From Chromohalobacter marismortui (GTDB lineage Bacteria > Pseudomonadota > Gammaproteobacteria > Pseudomonadales > Halomonadaceae): 64,000 nt of DNA. The stretch is from NCBI RefSeq assembly GCF_004364315.1, contig NZ_SOBR01000010.1, positions 1 through 64,000 of the forward strand, in the 5' to 3' direction. Position numbers and translations under genes: made by a program. The notes below the pieces were generated by a model. It worked only from the letters and a program-made list of their open reading frames with translations. It made no database searches and was not told where the DNA came from. Of this stretch, positions 8,905 to 16,488 are shown in pieces (within the stretch, counting starts at the first letter, position 1; every line of letters begins with the position of its first letter).

Positions 8905-9652
8905 CACAAGCGCTCGGCGGCTGCCGCTCGAGATCCACCCGCAGCCGCCGGGTCAATATCGCCTGGCCAGGCATGCCCTCCATGTCCCGGGTGACGCTGA
9001 CACCATAGGCCAGCACCTCGACGCCCTGGGCGGCGACGCGACGCAGCGTGTCGGCATAGGCCGGGTCGAGATGCGCGGCCGGCGCCACGGCGTCGATGCC
9101 GGTGTGCGCCACGCAAAACAAGAGCACGGCACGCTCGCCCAACGCGACTCGCGTCGCCAGACTCTCAAGATGCCGACGGCCACGCTCGCTGACCGCGTCG
9201 GGGAAATAGCCATGACCATCCTCTTCACGCAGCGTGACCTGCTTGACCTCGACGTGGGTCGTTTGCCCTGCACTGGCGAGGCGAAAATCGAGCCGCGCGC
9301 CTTCGACCTTCGCCTCCCGCTTGAGTGTCGTATACCCTGCCAGCTCGGCGATACGCCCAGCCCCCAGGGCTTCCTCGACCCAGTCATTGGCGCGCCCGGT
9401 ATGTATCGACGCCAGGGCCGGTGGCGCGCCAGGCATGGGCAGCTCGATCCACTCCCAGGTCCAGGCCAGCTTGCGCGCGGGGTTGCGGCTCGGCGAGAGC
9501 CACACGCGACTGCCCGGGACATTGACCGCTCGCATGGAGCCGGTATTGGGGCAATGCGCGACCACCTCTTCGCCCGATGCCAAGCGCACATCGGCCAGAA
9601 AGCGCTTGTAACGGCGGATCAGGATGCCGGACCTCAGTTGCGTATATTCCAT
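8885..9652 (-). CDS. sfsA: SfsA family protein (sugar fermentation stimulation homologue)
   Basis: 255 residues with the SfsA pattern: RRYKRFLADV near residue 13, HCPNTGSM, a WTWEWIEL stretch, and the C-terminal nuclease-like core (DFRLASAG, THVEVKQVTL, FPDAVSERGRRHLESL). SfsA was described as a DNA-binding regulator of maltose genes in E. coli, and its fold resembles endonucleases; the real role here is unknown. It lies upstream of and divergent from dksA; in E. coli sfsA, dksA and gluQ are also neighbours. Confidence 0.92.
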   Translation of the reverse strand: MEYTQLRSGILIRRYKRFLADVRLASGEEVVAHCPNTGSMRAVNVPGSRVWLSPSRNPARKLAWTWEWIELPMPGAPPALASIHTGRANDWVEEALGAGRIAELAGYTTLKREAKVEGARLDFRLASAGQTTHVEVKQVTLREEDGHGYFPDAVSERGRRHLESLATRVALGERAVLLFCVAHTGIDAVAPAAHLDPAYADTLRRVAAQGVEVLAYGVSVTRDMEGMPGQAILTRRLRVDLERQPPSACVNVTRE

Positions 9653-9897
9653 CGCCCCCTCTTGAACCTCGGGTATGTCACATCTTGGGACAAAAAATCA
9701 CATTCTCGCCAGCATCGTCGCGTGGCCGCGTGATGCGCGCTCCAGCAGCTTGTCCGAGACCGGAAAACACCATTTCCTTTCCGGGAATGGTTGCAAAGCC
9801 GGCACTTTTCCGCTAAATAAGCAAGGCTTCGGGCGGGCGCCCAAGCCCTACCCTGGCCAGGCATCGGCCCAAGTCACTTGCGTAATGAGGCAGTCCC

Positions 9898-10335
9898 ATG
9901 CCAGTAGCGGAAATCAAAACGGAAGCGCCAAAAAAATTCACCCCGTACGAGCCGGCACCGGGTGAAGAGTACATGAACGAGCAGCAGCTCGCGCACTTCC
10001 GCCAAATCCTGCTCATCTGGAAACAGGAGCTCATGGAAGAGGTGGATCGCACGGTGCGCCACCTGCAGGAAGAAGCCAACAACTTCGCCGATCCGGCCGA
10101 CCGGGCCACCCAGGAAGAAGGCTTCAACCTGGAATTGCGTACCCGTGATCGCGAGCGCAAGCTCCTCAAGAAGATCAACGAGACCATCGAAAATATCGAT
10201 GAGGACGATTACGGCTTCTGTGAAGCCTGCGGCGTCGAGATCGGCATTCGTCGTCTCGAGGCCCGCCCCACCGCCACCTTGTGTGTCGACTGCAAGACAC
10301 TGGCGGAGCTCAAGGAAAAACAACTCGGCGGCTGA
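9898..10335 (+). CDS. dksA: RNA polymerase-binding transcription factor DksA
   Basis: Inserts a coiled coil into the RNA polymerase secondary channel and works with ppGpp in the stringent response. The 145-residue protein has an N-terminal extension, the long coiled coil (residues about 30-105) with the DPADRATQEE tip containing the key acidic residues, and a C4 zinc finger formed by CEACG and CVDCK. The A-rich start context reads MPVAEIKTEAP. An intrinsic terminator follows, then gluQ. Confidence 0.96.
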   Translation: MPVAEIKTEAPKKFTPYEPAPGEEYMNEQQLAHFRQILLIWKQELMEEVDRTVRHLQEEANNFADPADRATQEEGFNLELRTRDRERKLLKKINETIENIDEDDYGFCEACGVEIGIRRLEARPTATLCVDCKTLAELKEKQLGG

Positions 10336-10358
10336 TACCCTTTCCAGAACATTTCCTC

Positions 10359-10385
10359 AACGGGCACCTGCAGGTGCCCGTTTGT
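10359..10385 (+). terminator. intrinsic terminator after dksA
   Basis: A perfect stem AACGGGCACCTG / CAGGTGCCCGTT runs directly into TTTGTC. It separates dksA from gluQ and may be partial, because gluQ starts only 23 bases later. Confidence 0.75.
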
Positions 10386-10407
10386 CATTGCGCAGGCCAC
10401 GTCATTC

Positions 10408-11283
10408 ATGTCGTATATCGGTCGTTTCGCACCGACACCCTCGGGCCCCCTTCACCTAGGATCACTGATCGCAGCCCTGGCAAGCTTTCTCGATGCACGC
10501 CATGCACAGGGGCGCTGGCTCGTGCGTATCGAGGATATCGACCCACCACGCTGCCCCCTAGGCACCACCGATACGATTCTCCATCAGTTGAACGCCTTCG
10601 GCCTGGTCTGGGATGGCCCCGTGCGCTATCAGAGCGAGCGGCACGTCGCTTACCAGGCAGCGCTCGAGCGTCTCATCGAACAAGGACTGGCCTATCCGTG
10701 CAGTTGCTCGCGCAAGGAATGGCGCGGATATGCCATCTATCCCGGCTGGTGTCGGAACGGGCCGCTGCACCCCGAGCGCCCTCTGGCCTGGCGGCTGCGC
10801 AGCGATCTGGGCCTGCGCCCCGTCGAATGGGACGACCGACGCCTGGGACATCAACGCTTCGATCCCGCCGCCCTCGGCGACGTGGTCCTCAAGCGCAAGG
10901 ACGACCTCTGGGCCTATCAGCTCGCGGTGGTCGTCGATGACGCCGACCAAGGCGTGTCCGATGTGGTGCGCGGTGCCGACCTGCTCGACAACACGCCCTG
11001 GCAACGTCAGCTGCAGAACGCGCTGCAATATCCGGTGCCACGCTACCTGCATCTTCCCCTGGTGCTGGGTGACAACGGTCAGAAGCTCTCCAAGCAGAAC
11101 CTTGCCCCCGCGCTGCCGACCGATGAAGCCGGTATTCGCCACACCCTGCACCACGCTTTGCAGCGGCTCGGTCAACAACCGCCTGCCGACATGGCGCACG
11201 CCCACGTCGTCGACCAACTCGAGGCGGCCATCAACGCCTGGCATCCCGAATACTTGCGTCACATCACGACCGACACGCCCTGA
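10408..11283 (+). CDS. gluQ: glutamyl-Q tRNA(Asp) synthetase
   Basis: Truncated GluRS paralogue of 291 residues that attaches glutamate to the queuosine base of tRNA-Asp rather than to a tRNA 3' end. It has RFAPTPSGPLHLGSL (HIGH-type motif), a cysteine-rich zinc element (YPCSCSRKEW ... GWC) and KLSKQN in place of KMSKS, and it lacks the anticodon-binding domain. It follows dksA, as in E. coli and Pseudomonas. Confidence 0.95.
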   Translation: MSYIGRFAPTPSGPLHLGSLIAALASFLDARHAQGRWLVRIEDIDPPRCPLGTTDTILHQLNAFGLVWDGPVRYQSERHVAYQAALERLIEQGLAYPCSCSRKEWRGYAIYPGWCRNGPLHPERPLAWRLRSDLGLRPVEWDDRRLGHQRFDPAALGDVVLKRKDDLWAYQLAVVVDDADQGVSDVVRGADLLDNTPWQRQLQNALQYPVPRYLHLPLVLGDNGQKLSKQNLAPALPTDEAGIRHTLHHALQRLGQQPPADMAHAHVVDQLEAAINAWHPEYLRHITTDTP

Positions 11284-11434
11284 ACACCGCTAGGGGGCGA
11301 CATCCGTATCATGCCATGGTCGCACACCCCATCACTTGATTCGCCCAGCCGGCAGGGGTCAGGATAAAAACCCAGCGAGCGCCGCCAGAGCCGACGTTCG
11401 GCCGCCCCCATGCATTCACGCGACCATGAGGCCC

Positions 11435-12799
11435 ATGAGCCGAATTCTGATCGTCGAAAACGAAGCATCCCTCCGCCAGGCCCTGAAGGACCTGCTCGAG
11501 CGCCAGGCCTATCACGTCGCCATCGCGGCATCGCTCGACGCCGCCCAGGCACTGGCCCCGCAAACCTTTGACCTGGTGATCTGCGATTTACGTCTTGCGG
11601 GCGAAGACGGCACGCAAATGCTCGCGCTGAGCGCCCCGATCCCGGTACTGGTCATGACCGACCACAGCAGCCTACGCAAGGCCGTGATCGCGCTCAAGGA
11701 AGGGGCCGTCGACTGTATTGCCAAACCCGTCGATGACGATGACGTCCTGGCGACCGTGTCACGGGTGCTATCGCGTCCGGCACCTCGAGAAGCGTCTCGT
11801 CCCAGTGGCGTTCCACGCGGCATGATCGGCGAGTGTGCCGCCATGCAGCGTGTCTACGAACGCATTCGCAAGACGGCGCCCGCCGACGTCACCGTGCTGG
11901 TACAGGGCGAATCGGGTACCGGCAAGGAACTGGTCGCACGCGCCCTGCACCGCCAGAGCCGCCGCACCAAGGCACCGCTGATCTGCGTCAACTGCGCGGC
12001 GATTCCCGAGACCCTGATCGAATCCGAGCTGTTCGGCCACGAAAAAGGCGCTTTCACGGGCGCCAACAGTGCACGCACGGGCCTGGTCGAAGCCGCCGAT
12101 GGCGGCACGCTCTTTCTCGACGAGATCGGCGAGCTCCCGCTGGACGCTCAGGCTCGGCTGCTACGGGTTCTTCAGGAAGGCGAGATCCGGCGTATCGGCT
12201 CGGTAGAAACACGTTACGTCGATGTACGTCTGATCGCCGCTACGCATCGCGATCTTCACTCTCTGTCACGCAGCGGCGAGTTCAGGCTCGATCTCTACTA
12301 TCGCCTCAATGTCATGCAGATCGAGTTGCCACCGCTACGCGAGCGCGAGGACGACATACTTTCCATTGCCCAGACACTGCTCGAACGTGCCTGCACGCGC
12401 CATGCACGCCCCGGATTGCGCTTATCACGCGCCGCACGCCGCGACATCCTCGGCTATGCATGGCCCGGCAATGTGCGCGAGCTGGAAAACGCACTGGAGC
12501 GCGGCGTTATTCTCGCCGAAGGCTACCTCATTCATCCTGACGACCTTGGTCTCCCCCTGGAACGCCGACAAGAGCCGCCCGCCGCATCTCCCGAACCATC
12601 CGACGCCGCGGAGGAAGACGGTGTCCCCGACGACGACCTCTCCCTGGAAGATTACTTCCAGCATTTCGTCCTCGAGCACCAAGCGCAGATGAGTGAAACC
12701 GAACTGGCCCAGAAACTGGGCATCAGCCGCAAATGCCTGTGGGAGCGTCGCCAGCGGCTGGGTATCCCGCGCAAGAAGAGCGCGCGCCGCCCAGCGTGA
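11435..12799 (+). CDS. cbrB: sigma-54-dependent response regulator, CbrB-like
   Basis: NtrC-family activator of 454 residues. The receiver domain (1-115) has the phospho-acceptor Asp in VICDLRL, Thr in VMTDHSS and Lys in IAKPVD. The AAA+ domain follows with Walker A GESGTGKE, the sigma-54 contact loop GAFTGA and Walker [13 protein letters not shown]-terminal Fis-type helix-turn-helix ([19 protein letters not shown]) ends it. Position between gluQ and pcnB and domain order match CbrB of Pseudomonas, which controls carbon/nitrogen use and crcZ. The partner kinase gene cbrA is not present next to it. The start at 11435 is preferred over 11426 and the more distant 11336. Confidence 0.85.
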
Positions 12800-12854
12800 T
12801 ACGCCCACATGCTACTTTCGAACGATTTTTGCCCTTATCGCGACTATGGTCTAA

Positions 12855-12889
12855 GCGCATCTGTCGGTCTTTTTAGAGACCCTATGCGC
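12855..12889 (+). terminator. two-part hairpin after the cbrB-like gene
   Basis: An outer stem GCGCAT (12855-12860) / ATGCGC (12884-12889) encloses an inner stem GGTCT (12866-12870) / AGACC (12877-12881). There is no clear U tract after it, so it could be a weak terminator or an RNA processing structure between the regulator gene and the downstream RNA. Confidence 0.4.
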
Positions 12890-12915
12890 CATCGGGAAGA
12901 GGCAGCTGCACCAGT

Positions 12916-12966
12916 TGTTACCATCCCACACAAGGAATGCCCCTTTATGCGGCAACTTCGGTAACA
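12916..12966 (+). promoter_or_regulatory. candidate activator site (TGTTAC...GTAACA dyad) upstream of the sigma-54 promoter
   Basis: TGTTAC (12916-12921) and its inverted copy GTAACA (12961-12966) lie 75-125 bases upstream of the sigma-54 promoter. CbrB targets in Pseudomonas are reported to carry the same half-sites, with a shorter spacer; here the spacer is 39 bases. This is the expected upstream activating position for an NtrC-family regulator. Confidence 0.6.
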
Positions 12967-13007
12967 CCACATGCTTTCAGCTCGCGAGGAACTTTCAAGA
13001 ATAACCA

Positions 13008-13020
13008 TAACACCTTGATT
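13008..13020 (-). promoter_or_regulatory. IHF binding site
   Basis: On the minus strand the sequence AATCAAGGTGTTA fits the IHF consensus WATCAANNNNTTR at every defined position. It lies between the activator dyad and the -24/-12 promoter, where IHF typically bends DNA to bring a sigma-54 activator to RNA polymerase. Confidence 0.65.
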
Positions 13021-13040
13021 TAAAATAAAAAAACACACAG

Positions 13041-13056
13041 TGGCACGGCCGCTGCA
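13041..13056 (+). promoter_or_regulatory. sigma-54 (-24/-12) promoter of the CrcZ-like RNA
   Basis: TGGCAC (13041-13046), five bases, then CTGCA (13052-13056) match the sigma-54 consensus TGGCAC-N5-TTGCW with a single change, C for T at the first base of the -12 element. The GG and GC dinucleotides have the obligatory 10-base separation. Transcription would start about 12 bases beyond the GC, near 13067. Confidence 0.8.
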
Positions 13057-13355
13057 ATATATAGGTCAAGAAAAACAACAACCGGACGCCTAAGGTGAAC
13101 GAACAACGACAATAACGTATGCCTCAGGTGCTCAGTCCGGCATCGGCCACAACAAACACAACACCGCCGGACTGGAACATCGCAAGCGATTCGCTAACAA
13201 CAACAAACGAGACGCAACGCGAACCGACCCCAATAACAACAAGCCGGTCGGCATCCGGAACCGAACCAGGACGCGACGCTTCATGCGAGGCCCAACAAGA
13301 ACAACGCCCTCGCTCGAAGCATCCCGACAACAACAACAAGACGTCGGGAGAAACG

Positions 13356-13424
13356 ATGTCGTCGTGGTTGGATTATTGTTTTGAATACGAGGTGGTCACC
13401 TTGCGGGAAGAGCCACAACAATAA
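13356..13424 (+). CDS. possible 22-residue peptide inside the CrcZ-like RNA
   Basis: A short ORF starts at ATG 13356 with GGGAG at 13346-13350 as a well-placed Shine-Dalgarno sequence, and ends with TAA at 13422-13424, inside the last CA cluster. The peptide is mixed acidic/aromatic (MSSWLDYCFEYEVV at its start) rather than the Asn/Thr/Gln-rich sequence that the CA repeats give elsewhere in the same frame. It has no recognisable family. It may be a chance ORF; if real, the RNA would be dual-function. Confidence 0.25.
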   Translation: MSSWLDYCFEYEVVTLREEPQQ

Positions 13425-13530
13425 GAACACTGCTTGCCTGCCGGATCCCATTGGTGACTGTGGTGCGTATTCAAGGCGATGCGCCATCACGAAGAAGAAA
13501 TAGCAGCAAGGACGTTGCATAGCATACTTA

Positions 13531-13556
13531 GGGGAGGCCCATCGGGTCTCCCCTTC
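13531..13556 (+). terminator. terminator hairpin at the end of the CrcZ-like RNA
   Basis: The stem GGGGAGGCCC (13531-13540) / GGGTCTCCCC (13544-13553) has a 3-base loop and one G-U pair, followed by TTCT. It ends the putative RNA about 125 bases before pcnB. The U tract is short. Confidence 0.65.
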
Positions 13557-13682
13557 TACTGTGGCCTATCACCGTCCACTCTTCATGCGCCTGCCCACAG
13601 GTCCATGCACCACATTTTTTGCAAGCCGGAGAGTGTCGGCTTACACTAGGCCACTTCGCTTTCCGCGAGTCGTTAACGACGC

Positions 13683-15101
13683 ATGTTCAAAGGATTTACC
13701 CGCTTTCTCCAACGCCCCGGTGAACGTTTGAAGACCCTGTTTGGCGCCCAAGAGTCCTCCGGTCCTTCCACGCCCACGCTGCGCGTCATTCCACGCGATC
13801 AGCACGACGTGTCACGGCGTCTATTCAGCGACAGTGCCCTCAAAGTCCTGTATCGCTTGCACAACGCCGGTCATGAGGCTTACTTGGTGGGCGGTTGTGT
13901 ACGTGATTCCCTGTTGGGCAAGATCCCAAAGGACTTCGATATCGCCACCGACGCCACGCCGGAAGAGGTGCGCACCCTATTTCGCAACTCGCGGATCATC
14001 GGGCGCCGCTTCCGTATCGTTCACGTACGCTTCGGCCGTGAAATCATCGAGGTCACGACCTTTCGTGGACGTCCCGACGACGATCATGACACGAAGCATG
14101 CCCAGCAATCCGACGATGGTTTGCTGCTGCGCGACAACGTCTGGGGCACCATCGAGGAAGATGCGCTACGGCGCGACTTCACGGTCAATGCGCTGTACTA
14201 CAACATCGCCGACTTCTCGATACACGACTGGGCCGACGGCGTGCACGACCTTGAGGCCCGCACCCTGCGCTTGATCGGCGACCCCGACGTACGCTATCGA
14301 GAGGATCCGGTGCGCATGCTGCGTGCCGTGCGTTTCGCCGCCAAGCTGGACTTCGACATCGAGCCACGCACCGAGACCCCGATTCTCGAATTGGCTCCTT
14401 TGCTGTTACAGATCCCCCCGGCACGCTTGTTCGAGGAAGTACTCAAGCTTTTCCTATCCGGACAAGCACTACGAACCTTCGAATTGCTCCGCGAATACGG
14501 CCTTTTCGCCATGCTATTCCCGGAGGTGGAAGAGGCCATTGCGGAGCGCACATGGGCAAAGCCGCTCATCGAGCAGGCCTTGATCAACACCGATCGGCGT
14601 ATCCAGGAAGAACGCCCCGTCACACCAGCGTTTCTGTACGGCGCCCTGCTGTGGCCCGGTATGCGTCTACGCGCCGAGCGTCTCGAGGGAGACGGTATGC
14701 CACCTGTCCCTGCGCAACAAACGGCCTCGCAACAAAGCATCTCTCGGCAACAGCAACACACCTCGATCCCCAAGCGGTTCAGCATCCCGATGCGTGAAAT
14801 CTGGGACCTGCAACAGCAGTTGCCCAAGCGCCGTGGCAAACGCGCCTTCCAGACCTTGGAACATACCCGTTTTCGGGCCGCTTATGACTTTCTCCTGCTG
14901 CGGGAAAGTGCCGGTGAAATCGCCCCGGGGCTCGGCGACTGGTGGACGGCGTTCCAGGAAGGCGACGATCATGAGCAGGCACGCTTGATCAGCAAGACCA
15001 GCGGCTCCCCGGCCGGCACGTCCGAGCGACCCAAGCGGCGGCGGCGGCGGCGGCGGCGTAACGCGTCCTCCGAGCACGATAATGACGGACACCAGGAGTG
15101 A
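13683..15101 (+). CDS. pcnB: poly(A) polymerase I
   Basis: Adds 3' poly(A) tails that promote RNA decay. The 472-residue protein has the nucleotidyltransferase core HEAYLVGGCVRDSLLG with catalytic carboxylates in KDFDIATDA, the RRDFTVNALYYN segment and the tRNA-nucleotidyltransferase-like neck/body REDPVRMLRAVRFAAKLDF. The C-terminus ends in a basic low-complexity tail with a run of Arg codons (seven CGG then CGT, 15036-15059), as expected for a PAP I tail but made by a trinucleotide repeat. It overlaps folK by 20 bases, as in Pseudomonas. Confidence 0.95.
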   Translation: MFKGFTRFLQRPGERLKTLFGAQESSGPSTPTLRVIPRDQHDVSRRLFSDSALKVLYRLHNAGHEAYLVGGCVRDSLLGKIPKDFDIATDATPEEVRTLFRNSRIIGRRFRIVHVRFGREIIEVTTFRGRPDDDHDTKHAQQSDDGLLLRDNVWGTIEEDALRRDFTVNALYYNIADFSIHDWADGVHDLEARTLRLIGDPDVRYREDPVRMLRAVRFAAKLDFDIEPRTETPILELAPLLLQIPPARLFEEVLKLFLSGQALRTFELLREYGLFAMLFPEVEEAIAERTWAKPLIEQALINTDRRIQEERPVTPAFLYGALLWPGMRLRAERLEGDGMPPVPAQQTASQQSISRQQQHTSIPKRFSIPMREIWDLQQQLPKRRGKRAFQTLEHTRFRAAYDFLLLRESAGEIAPGLGDWWTAFQEGDDHEQARLISKTSGSPAGTSERPKRRRRRRRRNASSEHDNDGHQE

Positions 15102-15582
15102 TCGCATAGCGGCCTACATTGGCCTGGGCAGCAATCTGGATGGGCCGCGCACGCATGTCTCGCGCGCCTTCAGCGAACTCGATGCTCTGCCGCTTACCCA
15201 ACTGGCGGGGCATTCTTCCTTGTACGCCTCGACACCCGTGGGGCCCCAGGATCAACCCGACTTCATCAATGCCGTCGCCCGGGTGTTCACGCGGCTCTCA
15301 CCGCTGGCCTTGCTCGATCAACTGCAAGCCCTCGAACAACGTCATCGCCGGGTGCGCCAACGTCACTGGGGGCCGCGCACGCTGGATCTCGATCTATTGC
15401 TCTACGCGAATCTCGAATGGCAAACGCCGCGCCTGACGCTTCCTCATCCAGCCATGCACGAGCGAGCCTTCGTGCTCATTCCTCTGGCGGAACTCGCCCC
15501 CGAGATCGTGCTCGATGGGTACACGGCGGCCACACTGGCCATGCCTCATCAGGGGCGGGACTTGCGTCGCCTCGTCCCCTAA
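15082..15582 (+). CDS. folK: 2-amino-4-hydroxy-6-hydroxymethyldihydropteridine pyrophosphokinase
   Basis: Transfers pyrophosphate from ATP to 6-hydroxymethyl-dihydropterin in folate synthesis; its product is used by FolP, encoded at 31 kb in this window. The 166-residue protein has AYIGLGSNLDGP at the N-terminus, QPDFINAVA, and the Mg/ATP signature WGPRTLDLDLLLY, with LPHPAMHERAFVLIPL after it. The start lies inside the pcnB 3' end. Confidence 0.95.
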   Translation: MTDTRSDRIAAYIGLGSNLDGPRTHVSRAFSELDALPLTQLAGHSSLYASTPVGPQDQPDFINAVARVFTRLSPLALLDQLQALEQRHRRVRQRHWGPRTLDLDLLLYANLEWQTPRLTLPHPAMHERAFVLIPLAELAPEIVLDGYTAATLAMPHQGRDLRRLVP

Positions 15583-15602
15583 AAGTAGAGTTGCACCCGT
15601 TT

Positions 15603-15651
15603 TGTTACCGATCCACACTCCCACCACCCTCGGGTAACGCTTGCGGTAACA
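15603..15651 (+). promoter_or_regulatory. TGTTAC...GTAACA dyad upstream of panB
   Basis: TGTTAC (15603-15608) and GTAACA (15646-15651) repeat the same half-sites and nearly the same spacing (37 versus 39 bases) as the dyad upstream of the CrcZ-like RNA. An extra GTAAC lies at 15634-15638. No -24/-12 sigma-54 promoter is visible between it and panB, so its role is uncertain. Confidence 0.35.
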
Positions 15652-15696
15652 CTTACCGTCCGGGTCTGCCAGGACCGACAAACCACGAGACTTTTC

Positions 15697-16488
15697 ATGA
15701 AAACCGTCACATTGAGCCGTCTCAATGCCTTCAAGCATGCCCAAGAGCCGTTCAGCTGCCTGACGGCCTACGATGCCTCGTTCGCCCAGCACGCCGATGC
15801 AGCCGGTATCGATGTCTTGCTGGTCGGCGACTCGTTGGGCATGGTGCTGCAGGGCCATGCCAGCACGCTTGCCGTGACGCTCGACGACATCCTCTACCAC
15901 ACGCGCTGCGTGGCACGCGGCAAGCAACGCAGCCTGTTGATGGTCGACTTGCCCTTCATGAGCAACGCCGACACCGGGCAATTGCTGCGTGACGCCGGCG
16001 CCTTGATGCGGGCCGGCGCCGAGCTGGTCAAGATCGAAGGCGCGGGCTGGATGCACGACGATGTCCGTGCCCTCACGCGGCGCGGCGTGCCGGTGTGCGC
16101 GCATCTCGGGCTGACGCCCCAGAGCGTGCATCAGTTCGGAGGCTACAAGGTACAAGGCCGCGAGCAGGACGACGCTCAGCGCATCATCGACGACGCCCGC
16201 TTGCTGGTCGAGGCCGGTGCCTCGGTGATCCTGCTGGAATGCGTGCCTGCGGCGCTCGGTCGGGCCGTCCGCGACGCCGTGGACGTCCCCGTGATCGGTA
16301 TCGGCGCCGGCCCCGAGGTGGATGGGCAGATCCTGGTGATGCACGATGTGATCGGCGTGACGCATGGACGCCCCCCACGCTTCGCCAAGAATTTCCTGGC
16401 GGGTCGTGACAGTATCCAGGCGGCGTTCGACGCCTATCGCGATGCCGTCAAGACGCGCCAATTTCCCGCCGAGGAGCATTGTTTCTGA
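15697..16488 (+). CDS. panB: 3-methyl-2-oxobutanoate hydroxymethyltransferase
   Basis: First committed step of pantothenate synthesis: ketopantoate from alpha-ketoisovalerate and 5,10-methylene-tetrahydrofolate. The 263-residue TIM barrel has VLLVGDSLGMVLQGH (metal-binding Asp), LMVDLPFMSN, VKIEGAGWM and AHLGLTPQSVH, plus the conserved ECVPAAL and GIGAGPEVDGQILVMHD segments. It overlaps panC by one base (TGATG), indicating translational coupling. Confidence 0.96.
   Translation: MKTVTLSRLNAFKHAQEPFSCLTAYDASFAQHADAAGIDVLLVGDSLGMVLQGHASTLAVTLDDILYHTRCVARGKQRSLLMVDLPFMSNADTGQLLRDAGALMRAGAELVKIEGAGWMHDDVRALTRRGVPVCAHLGLTPQSVHQFGGYKVQGREQDDAQRIIDDARLLVEAGASVILLECVPAALGRAVRDAVDVPVIGIGAGPEVDGQILVMHDVIGVTHGRPPRFAKNFLAGRDSIQAAFDAYRDAVKTRQFPAEEHCF

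Follow-up and report, generated by a model that had tools for sequence, protein, structure and literature searches.

The closest described counterpart of the locus analyzed here is the CbrA–CbrB two-component system of Pseudomonas and Azotobacter (PMC8871633, PMC6296734, PMC6591292). Except for a basal activity on glucose, activation of crcZ in P. putida strictly requires CbrA (PMC6591292). The published CbrB site reads TGTTAC-N12-14-GTAACA-N15-19-GTAACA (PMC8871633). Two of these papers call CbrAB exclusive to Pseudomonadaceae (PMC8871633, PMC6296734). The system is spread well beyond that family: CbrA is matched in 107 of 145 Pseudomonadales genomes.

A second point of comparison is the set of atypical response regulators that includes HP1043, ChxR, and FleQ (PMC12632262, PMC8345958, PMC3960148). 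These proteins are orphans that keep the receiver fold, lack one or more catalytic residues, and are thought to act without phosphorylation. Specifically, a pseudo-receiver is defined as a receiver lacking any one of five residues: the pair DD, the acceptor D, T, and K (PMC12632262). In true receivers, both DD1 and DD2 carry acidic side chains, and DD2 is a direct ligand of the metal (PMC12632262). Position T+1 is typically occupied by a small residue. According to the same 2025 review, pseudo-receivers seem to have evolved many times, their switching is a mystery, and their functional convergence is unclear (PMC12632262). Constitutively active receivers are also known from the laboratory, among them D-to-E regulators and CheY D13K (PMC6211767, PMC4671073).

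Here, we describe a locus in the window, by which we mean the whole 64,000-nucleotide stretch of Chromohalobacter marismortui DNA that was analyzed. The locus has the regulator family and gene order of the Pseudomonas and Azotobacter system and shares with it a sigma-54 target of the crcZ kind, the TGTTAC and GTAACA subsites, and an RNA with CA motifs. It differs in lacking CbrA, CbrX, and DD2 and in having other residues at T+1, T+2, and K+2. Among the open-access papers listed in the literature searches, judged by titles and abstract openings, none describes CbrB without CbrA. An orphan atypical regulator is a known kind of protein; a replicated, staged conversion with the target still attached is new, as far as the literature searched extends.

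Loss of cbrA and cbrX beside a retained target

The genome that carries the window is 3.55 Mb in size and 99.99% complete, a draft in 23 contigs. The locus contains the following features.

9898..10335, + strand: dksA, first gene of the conserved order (NCBIfam TIGR02420, above cut-off)
10408..11283, + strand: gluQ (GluQRS), directly 5' of the deletion site (TIGR03838 and NF004314, above cut-offs)
11284..11434, no strand: gluQ–cbrB gap, 142-151 gene-free bases at the position of cbrX-cbrA in relatives
11435..12799, + strand: cbrB, NtrC-type sigma-54 activator (Pfam Response_reg, Sigma54_activat, AAA_lid_14)
12916..12966, + strand: CbrB subsites F1 TGTTAC (12916-12921) and R2 GTAACA (12961-12966), 39 bases apart
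13041..13055, + strand: sigma-54 type (-24/-12) promoter TGGCACGGCCGCTGC of the CrcZ-like RNA, a pattern match without shuffle control
13066..13553, + strand: CrcZ-like small RNA with repeated AANAANAA (Hfq/Crc) motifs, ends approximate
13683..15101, + strand: pcnB, the downstream flank (TIGR01942, above cut-off)

A sequence-only reading of this DNA had called the regulator cbrB-like, placed it about 150 gene-free bases from gluQ in an order that was otherwise intact, RNA included, and stated that cbrA lies between gluQ and cbrB in Pseudomonas. Each of these points holds. The protein consists of a receiver, an AAA+ domain, and a DNA-binding end; it is a sigma-54 activator standing in the order gluQ-(cbrXA)-cbrB-crcZ-pcnB, and the output-domain tree nests it within the Halomonadaceae CbrB clade. 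Among the matches listed, it is 72-78% identical to the CbrBs of other genera. On the + strand, dksA, gluQ, cbrB, the CrcZ-like RNA, and pcnB follow one another, with dksA, gluQ, and pcnB identified by NCBIfam. The gap measures 142 bases if cbrB starts at ATG 11426 and 151 bases if it starts at ATG 11435, the more likely start judging from conservation across the window's genus. As for the relatives, gluQ, cbrX, cbrA, and cbrB stand in a row in two genomes of the same family (G102 and G073), the first with a cbrX-like frame of 58 codons and a CbrA that is a transporter-kinase of ~990 aa. Halomonas maura (L133) and Pseudomonas fildesensis (L135) likewise carry cbrA at this position, flanked by gluQ and cbrB.

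All ten genomes of the window's genus have cbrB directly after gluQ, and the CbrBs of the nine others are 86-94% identical to the window's. CbrA is absent at E <= 1e-120 from all ten, one of which is a single contig (G233). A Halomonadaceae CbrA query against the window's whole assembly returned no CbrA, only the SSS part of a hybrid kinase and ordinary kinase domains; the cognate transporter-kinase is missing from this genome. The gap holds no remnant of cbrA or cbrX above chance (best match E 0.57), and the best match in the nine other gaps of the genus has E 0.23. Remnants of cbrA do persist elsewhere, in G308, G153, G265, G221, and G229, with a weak one in G156 (E 8e-5).

The sequence-only reading had considered that cbrA might have moved, and an assembly gap at this place would have hidden a linked copy. 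The assembly is indeed a draft of 23 contigs. Against a relocated or hidden cbrA stand the near-complete assembly, the genome-wide absence of CbrA, and its absence from all ten genomes of the genus, including the single-contig one. An assembly gap is excluded because the locus lies ~11 kb inside a 94,705-base contig and the same arrangement, with no linked cbrA, recurs in all ten. The probability that cbrA was relocated or overlooked is thus very small, and for the genomes examined the idea is already refuted: cbrA is lost, not relocated, in the ten genomes of the window's genus.

What lies downstream of cbrB is kept. Both the -24/-12 element (such elements were called by alignment and a looser pattern) and the exact TGTTAC-N39-GTAACA pair are present in all ten genomes of the genus. 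Among the other family loci without cbrA, 9 of 15 have the exact pair, the exceptions being the six genomes of group g96; among cbrA-bearing family loci whose sequence extends far enough, the figure is 22 of 23. Loci from outside the family have the pair in 4 of 33 cases when cbrA is present and in 0 of 18 when it is absent. Shuffling of the window's stretch produced the exact pair once in 20,000 trials. Owing to the degeneracy of R1, the middle subsite, the three-subsite score of the window did not exceed that of shuffles (10 of 60 scored as high); it is the exact two-hexamer pair that beats the shuffles. Nine AANAANAA motif clusters lie between cbrB and pcnB, seven of them after the promoter, against a shuffle mean of 0.4, and the RNA ends at an inverted repeat (13531-13553). 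Rfam matched no family at E <= 1 in window positions 9000-16000, and the label "CrcZ-like" rests on place, promoter, and motifs rather than on a covariance-model match.

The target-control sites, that is, the promoter, the subsites, and the CrcZ-like RNA, are therefore retained throughout the window's genus. Sigma-54 promoters need an activator. A crcZ control region that is kept without CbrA points to a CbrB that no longer needs CbrA. Given that crcZ of P. putida depends on CbrA, a lineage that keeps this region after losing the kinase should have compensated.

Several smaller features accompany the locus. The gap at 11284-11434 contains stretches conserved through the window's genus, TCATGCCATGGTCGCA ... 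CTTGATTCGCCC ... CAGGATA, which may hold the cbrB promoter; a consensus scan of the gap for a sigma-70 site found none. An element resembling GCGACCATGG, inverted, lies upstream of cbrB at 11308-11324 and recurs with small changes in all ten genomes of the genus. The same element appears as GCGACTATGGTCTAA at 12840-12854, just 3' of cbrB and upstream of crcZ, where its GAC(C/T)ATGGTC form is present in 15 of 25 aligned family loci.

Receiver decay and the order of events

Four sites in cbrB bear on the receiver.

11459..11461, + strand: codon of Asn9, at the position (DD2) normally held by the second metal-binding Asp; Asn throughout the genus (10 of 10 genomes)
11585..11587, + strand: codon of Asp51, the phospho-acceptor position, kept (alignment)
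11657..11665, + strand: Thr75, kept, with Asp76 at T+1 and His77 at T+2 (receiver alignment)
11723..11731, + strand: Lys97, kept, with Val99 at K+2 (receiver alignment)

The acid pair is Glu8-Asn9 in the window (VENE, versus VEDE) and E-N in every genome of the genus, whereas DD2 is Asp in all 134 loci with a full cbrA. In the same 134 loci, T+1 is always Ser, T+2 is Tyr in 131 and Phe in 3, and K+2 is Phe in 131 and Tyr in 3; K+2 is Val, Ala, or Leu in all ten genomes of the window's genus. Asp51 and Thr75 are kept in all ten and Lys97 in nine (one has Arg). The statement of the sequence-only reading that the receiver keeps its Asp, Thr, and Lys is thus right for these three residues; the five-residue active site is nonetheless broken, because DD2 is Asn. 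Under the definition given above (PMC12632262), the window's CbrB has a pseudo-receiver. T+1, T+2, and K+2, the other replaced positions, bear on phosphotransfer and on the active conformation.

The altered receiver is still under constraint. In the window's genus, omega is 0.12 for the receiver and 0.05 for the output domain, so that both are constrained, the receiver less so. The receiver/output omega ratio is 2.3-2.5; in cbrA-bearing genera this ratio is noisy, ranging from 0.40 to 3.79, and we therefore use the comparison only to show purifying selection. An AlphaFold model keeps the receiver fold (pLDDT blocks of 76-94 over residues 1-110); its whole-chain pTM of 0.46 means that the domain arrangement is not readable.

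The comparison across relatives proposed by the sequence-only reading reveals that cbrA loss has recurred in the order. In 145 evenly sampled Pseudomonadales genomes, with CbrB called at E <= 1e-100 and the receivers of all 125 CbrBs inspected, CbrB occurs in 125 genomes, CbrA in 107, and CbrB without CbrA in 20. A broken active site is found in none of the 105 genomes with CbrB and a CbrA somewhere in the genome and in 18 of the 20 without CbrA, the exceptions being G002 (75% complete) and G078. A family sample of 250 genomes (CbrB at E <= 1e-150, CbrA at E <= 1e-120) has CbrB in 206 and CbrA in 186, leaving 64 without CbrA; 7 of 24 family genera lack CbrB at that threshold. Of the 183 family genomes with both genes, 32 had their receivers read and all 32 are intact; of the 23 with CbrB and no CbrA, 19 are degenerate.

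Over all 180 loci read, a full adjacent cbrA goes with an intact receiver in 134 of 134. When four doubtful rows are dropped, the counts become 133 of 133 intact with cbrA versus 38 of 43 degenerate without. The rows left out of these counts, the trees, and the Pagel test are L258/G120 and L284/G092 (contig edge or fragment; CbrA is present in both genomes), L230/G002 (75% complete genome), and L231/G107 (a CbrB frame of ~186 aa). Three of the four are intact receivers without a full adjacent cbrA, and L231 is intact with one. Two of these rows merit a remark of their own: L230 has cbrB directly after dksA, with no gluQ or cbrA detected, and L231, where CbrA is present, may be a case of a damaged cbrB following an intact kinase gene.

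The decayed receivers differ in what they have lost. DD2 has become Lys and T has become Ala in the six g96 genomes. The acceptor D is replaced by E in three lineages, represented by G221 and G229, three genomes of family f13, and five of f15. G160 combines D to T, T to Ala, and K to Q; G231 has T to Ala and K to Q; G156 has K to Q. DD2, T, and K are all lost in two further f13 genomes, and decay is wholesale in f27 (four genomes) and f39 (three genomes). K+2 is changed in the window's genus, f13, and f15. Two genomes, G282 and G078, have no cbrA (G282 at most a chance-level trace) and keep all five residues. An equation of f27 with Acinetobacter was rejected, the named Acinetobacter genome giving no match.

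The g96 loci (L120-L125) are unusual in other respects as well. Their CbrB is longer, with frames of ~501-544 aa, and they lack an exact TGTTAC-N39-GTAACA; the -24/-12 element and CA motifs remain. DNA recognition by this CbrB may have shifted.

No broken receiver was found beside a standing cbrA (0 of 133; 0 of 134 before the rows were dropped), and therefore the kinase goes first. By parsimony on the output-domain tree (176 rows), the state of cbrA changes 11 times and that of the receiver 8 times. On this tree, which was midpoint-rooted and is partly weakly supported, and with the root fixed as cbrA present and receiver intact, a Pagel test favored dependence over independence (2dlnL 55.7, 4 d.f., p = 2e-11); the estimated rate of receiver decay was 0 with cbrA and 5.3 once it was lost. 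An independent-pairs sign test was not significant, with four pairs on supported branches and none contrary. Early stages are visible too: remnants of cbrA stand beside receivers with all five residues intact in G308, G153, and G265. Remnants do not always accompany an intact receiver, since G221 and G229 already have D to E and G156, with its weak remnant, has K to Q.

The receiver/output branch-length ratio is 3.4x background in the window's genus and 2.4-7.1x background in other degenerate lineages, measured against a null of 172 cbrA-bearing clades (95% at 2.06, maximum 2.70). G156 (2.4x) and G221/G229 (2.6x) stay below that maximum. G153 (0.9), G308 (1.6), and G078 (1.6) fall within the null. 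In G265 (3.7) and G282 (3.0), the five residues are intact and the receiver is already fast.

Proposed activation of crcZ without CbrA

Recurrent loss of cbrA, usually followed by receiver decay with the target kept, suggests that the switch now works without a sensor signal. We consider it probable that the window's CbrB is a kinase-independent, phosphate-free activator of crcZ whose output is proportional to the amount of CbrB. The proposed course of events is that the ancestor of the window's genus lost cbrX and cbrA by deletion and kept cbrB. The receiver would then have become a pseudo-receiver, still folded and under selection, as the metal ligand at DD2, the gating positions T+1/T+2, and K+2, a conformational residue, were replaced. 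Such a receiver could rest in, or cease to oppose, the active oligomerizing state, leaving the AAA+ domain unchecked. Most likely, CbrB would then need no phosphorylation to activate the sigma-54 promoter that drives the CrcZ-like RNA, and we infer that crcZ output would track the abundance of CbrB instead of signals from a membrane sensor. By parsimony, this succession of kinase loss and receiver change occurred repeatedly in the Pseudomonadales.

Some of the natural substitutions have precedents in the laboratory constitutive receivers introduced above. D to E has arisen in three CbrB lineages without cbrA, and Glu at the acceptor position is phosphomimetic in many regulators (PMC12632262), with NmpR as a D-to-E precedent (PMC6211767). 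DD2 to Lys, found in g96, corresponds to the constitutively active CheY D13K; the same changes in EpsW are not activating (PMC4671073). In CheY, active conformations are favored when K+2 is Ala, Ile, Leu, or Val (PMC12632262), a set that includes the K+2 residues of the window's genus. For the Asn that replaces DD2 in the window's genus, no constitutive precedent was found in the literature searched, nor was any paper on a PhoB D10A precedent. The replacements vary from lineage to lineage, and D to T, K to Q, and the general decay seen in f27 and f39 do not resemble specifically activating changes. In P. putida, basal activity on glucose does not require CbrA, and there is read-through transcription into crcZ, so that some phosphate-free output is not new in itself.

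The main rival to the kinase-independent reading is that Asp51 of CbrB continues to receive phosphate, from a different sensor kinase or from acetyl phosphate, through an Asn9 receiver that is slower but works. The sequence-only reading leaned this way, holding that CbrB probably still needs a phosphate donor and that another kinase might feed the switch. Retention of Asp51, Thr75, and Lys97 speaks for it, since a wholly phosphate-free protein would not obviously need them, as do the purifying selection on the receiver, the 21 HATPase_c matches in the window's genome, and the ability of wild-type P. putida CbrB to take phosphate from acetyl phosphate in vitro (PMC7096432). The acceptor D can, however, serve dimerization in pseudo-receivers (PMC12632262), and the active site argues against a working phosphoreceiver: the residue that binds the metal directly in true receivers, where both DD positions are acidic (PMC12632262), is Asn in all ten genomes, T+1 is Asp where small residues are usual and where every locus with a full cbrA has Ser, and T+2 and K+2 are replaced as well. 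The search of the whole genome for an SSS-domain kinase of the CbrA type, which the same reading had proposed, yielded no CbrA and one nearest relative, P0001, an SSS-PAS-kinase 31% identical to CbrA over the transporter part.

P0001 is a hybrid kinase with two PAS domains, encoded near an ActP-type symporter. It resembles the CrbS/MxtR/ErcS'-NahK hybrid kinases in being an SSS-PAS-kinase and, unlike CbrA, carries a C-terminal receiver. We take it to be CrbS/MxtR; the model matches themselves are NahK/ErcS'. Relatives at 79-100% occur in all 13 family genomes tried, four with cbrA and nine without, and in 15 of 17 genomes overall, the misses (G012 and G039) both lacking cbrA. Because it is present in relatives with and without cbrA, P0001 was rejected as a newly recruited substitute for CbrA. 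In sister lineages, moreover, the acceptor itself is gone, and a substitute kinase is therefore not the general answer. Neither a continuing need for a phosphate donor nor feeding by another kinase is supported, and we regard phosphorylation of Asp51 as an unlikely account of the window's CbrB; another kinase or acetyl phosphate may retain a residual role at the kept Asp51. More improbable still is that CbrB is on its way to becoming a pseudogene, its receiver changes being drift and crcZ being served by read-through or by another sigma-54 activator. The raised receiver rate, the receiver/output omega ratio, and the family genera without CbrB fit such a course. Against it, the full open frame is present in all ten genomes of the genus, output-domain omega is low and receiver omega far from neutral, and the exact subsite pair and the -24/-12 element are kept throughout.

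With the kinase-independent reading preferred for the window, a broader one is more tentative, and we would place its chances a little below even: that CbrB represents a replicated natural conversion of a two-component system to a one-protein switch, in ~8 or more lineages, with crcZ kept expressed and with receivers moved toward kinase-free activity partly via the positions of laboratory constitutive mutants. In contrast to HP1043, ChxR, and FleQ, the ancestral working CbrA–CbrB pair survives in close relatives and kinase remnants stand beside intact receivers, which makes the order of events readable. Within this one regulator family, the ancestral pair can be compared with early stages and with several completed pseudo-receivers, and most lineages of the Halomonadaceae still have the target in place. 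Survival of a regulator after loss of its kinase could therefore be tested by swapping a few residues. If the kinase-independent reading is true, a global carbon-repression switch would operate without its sensor in a whole genus; under the broader reading, carbon catabolite control in these bacteria would be governed solely by CbrB level, with no upstream transporter-sensor.

Finally, a second SSS-like sensor kinase, of ~920 aa and with no receiver, is encoded in G163 (L332:5720-8488) and its relatives. Pfam finds only HisKA and HATPase_c in it, and the N-terminal region can be aligned to the SSS portion of P0001. Its gene adjoins that of an exonuclease-domain protein and occurs in 163 of the 250 family genomes. 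This kinase is absent from all ten genomes of the window's genus and from G282, G160, G156, G219, G231, and G265, and is present in G308, G153, G221, and G229. It is not strictly co-lost with cbrA: some genomes that have cbrA, for example G147, are also without it.
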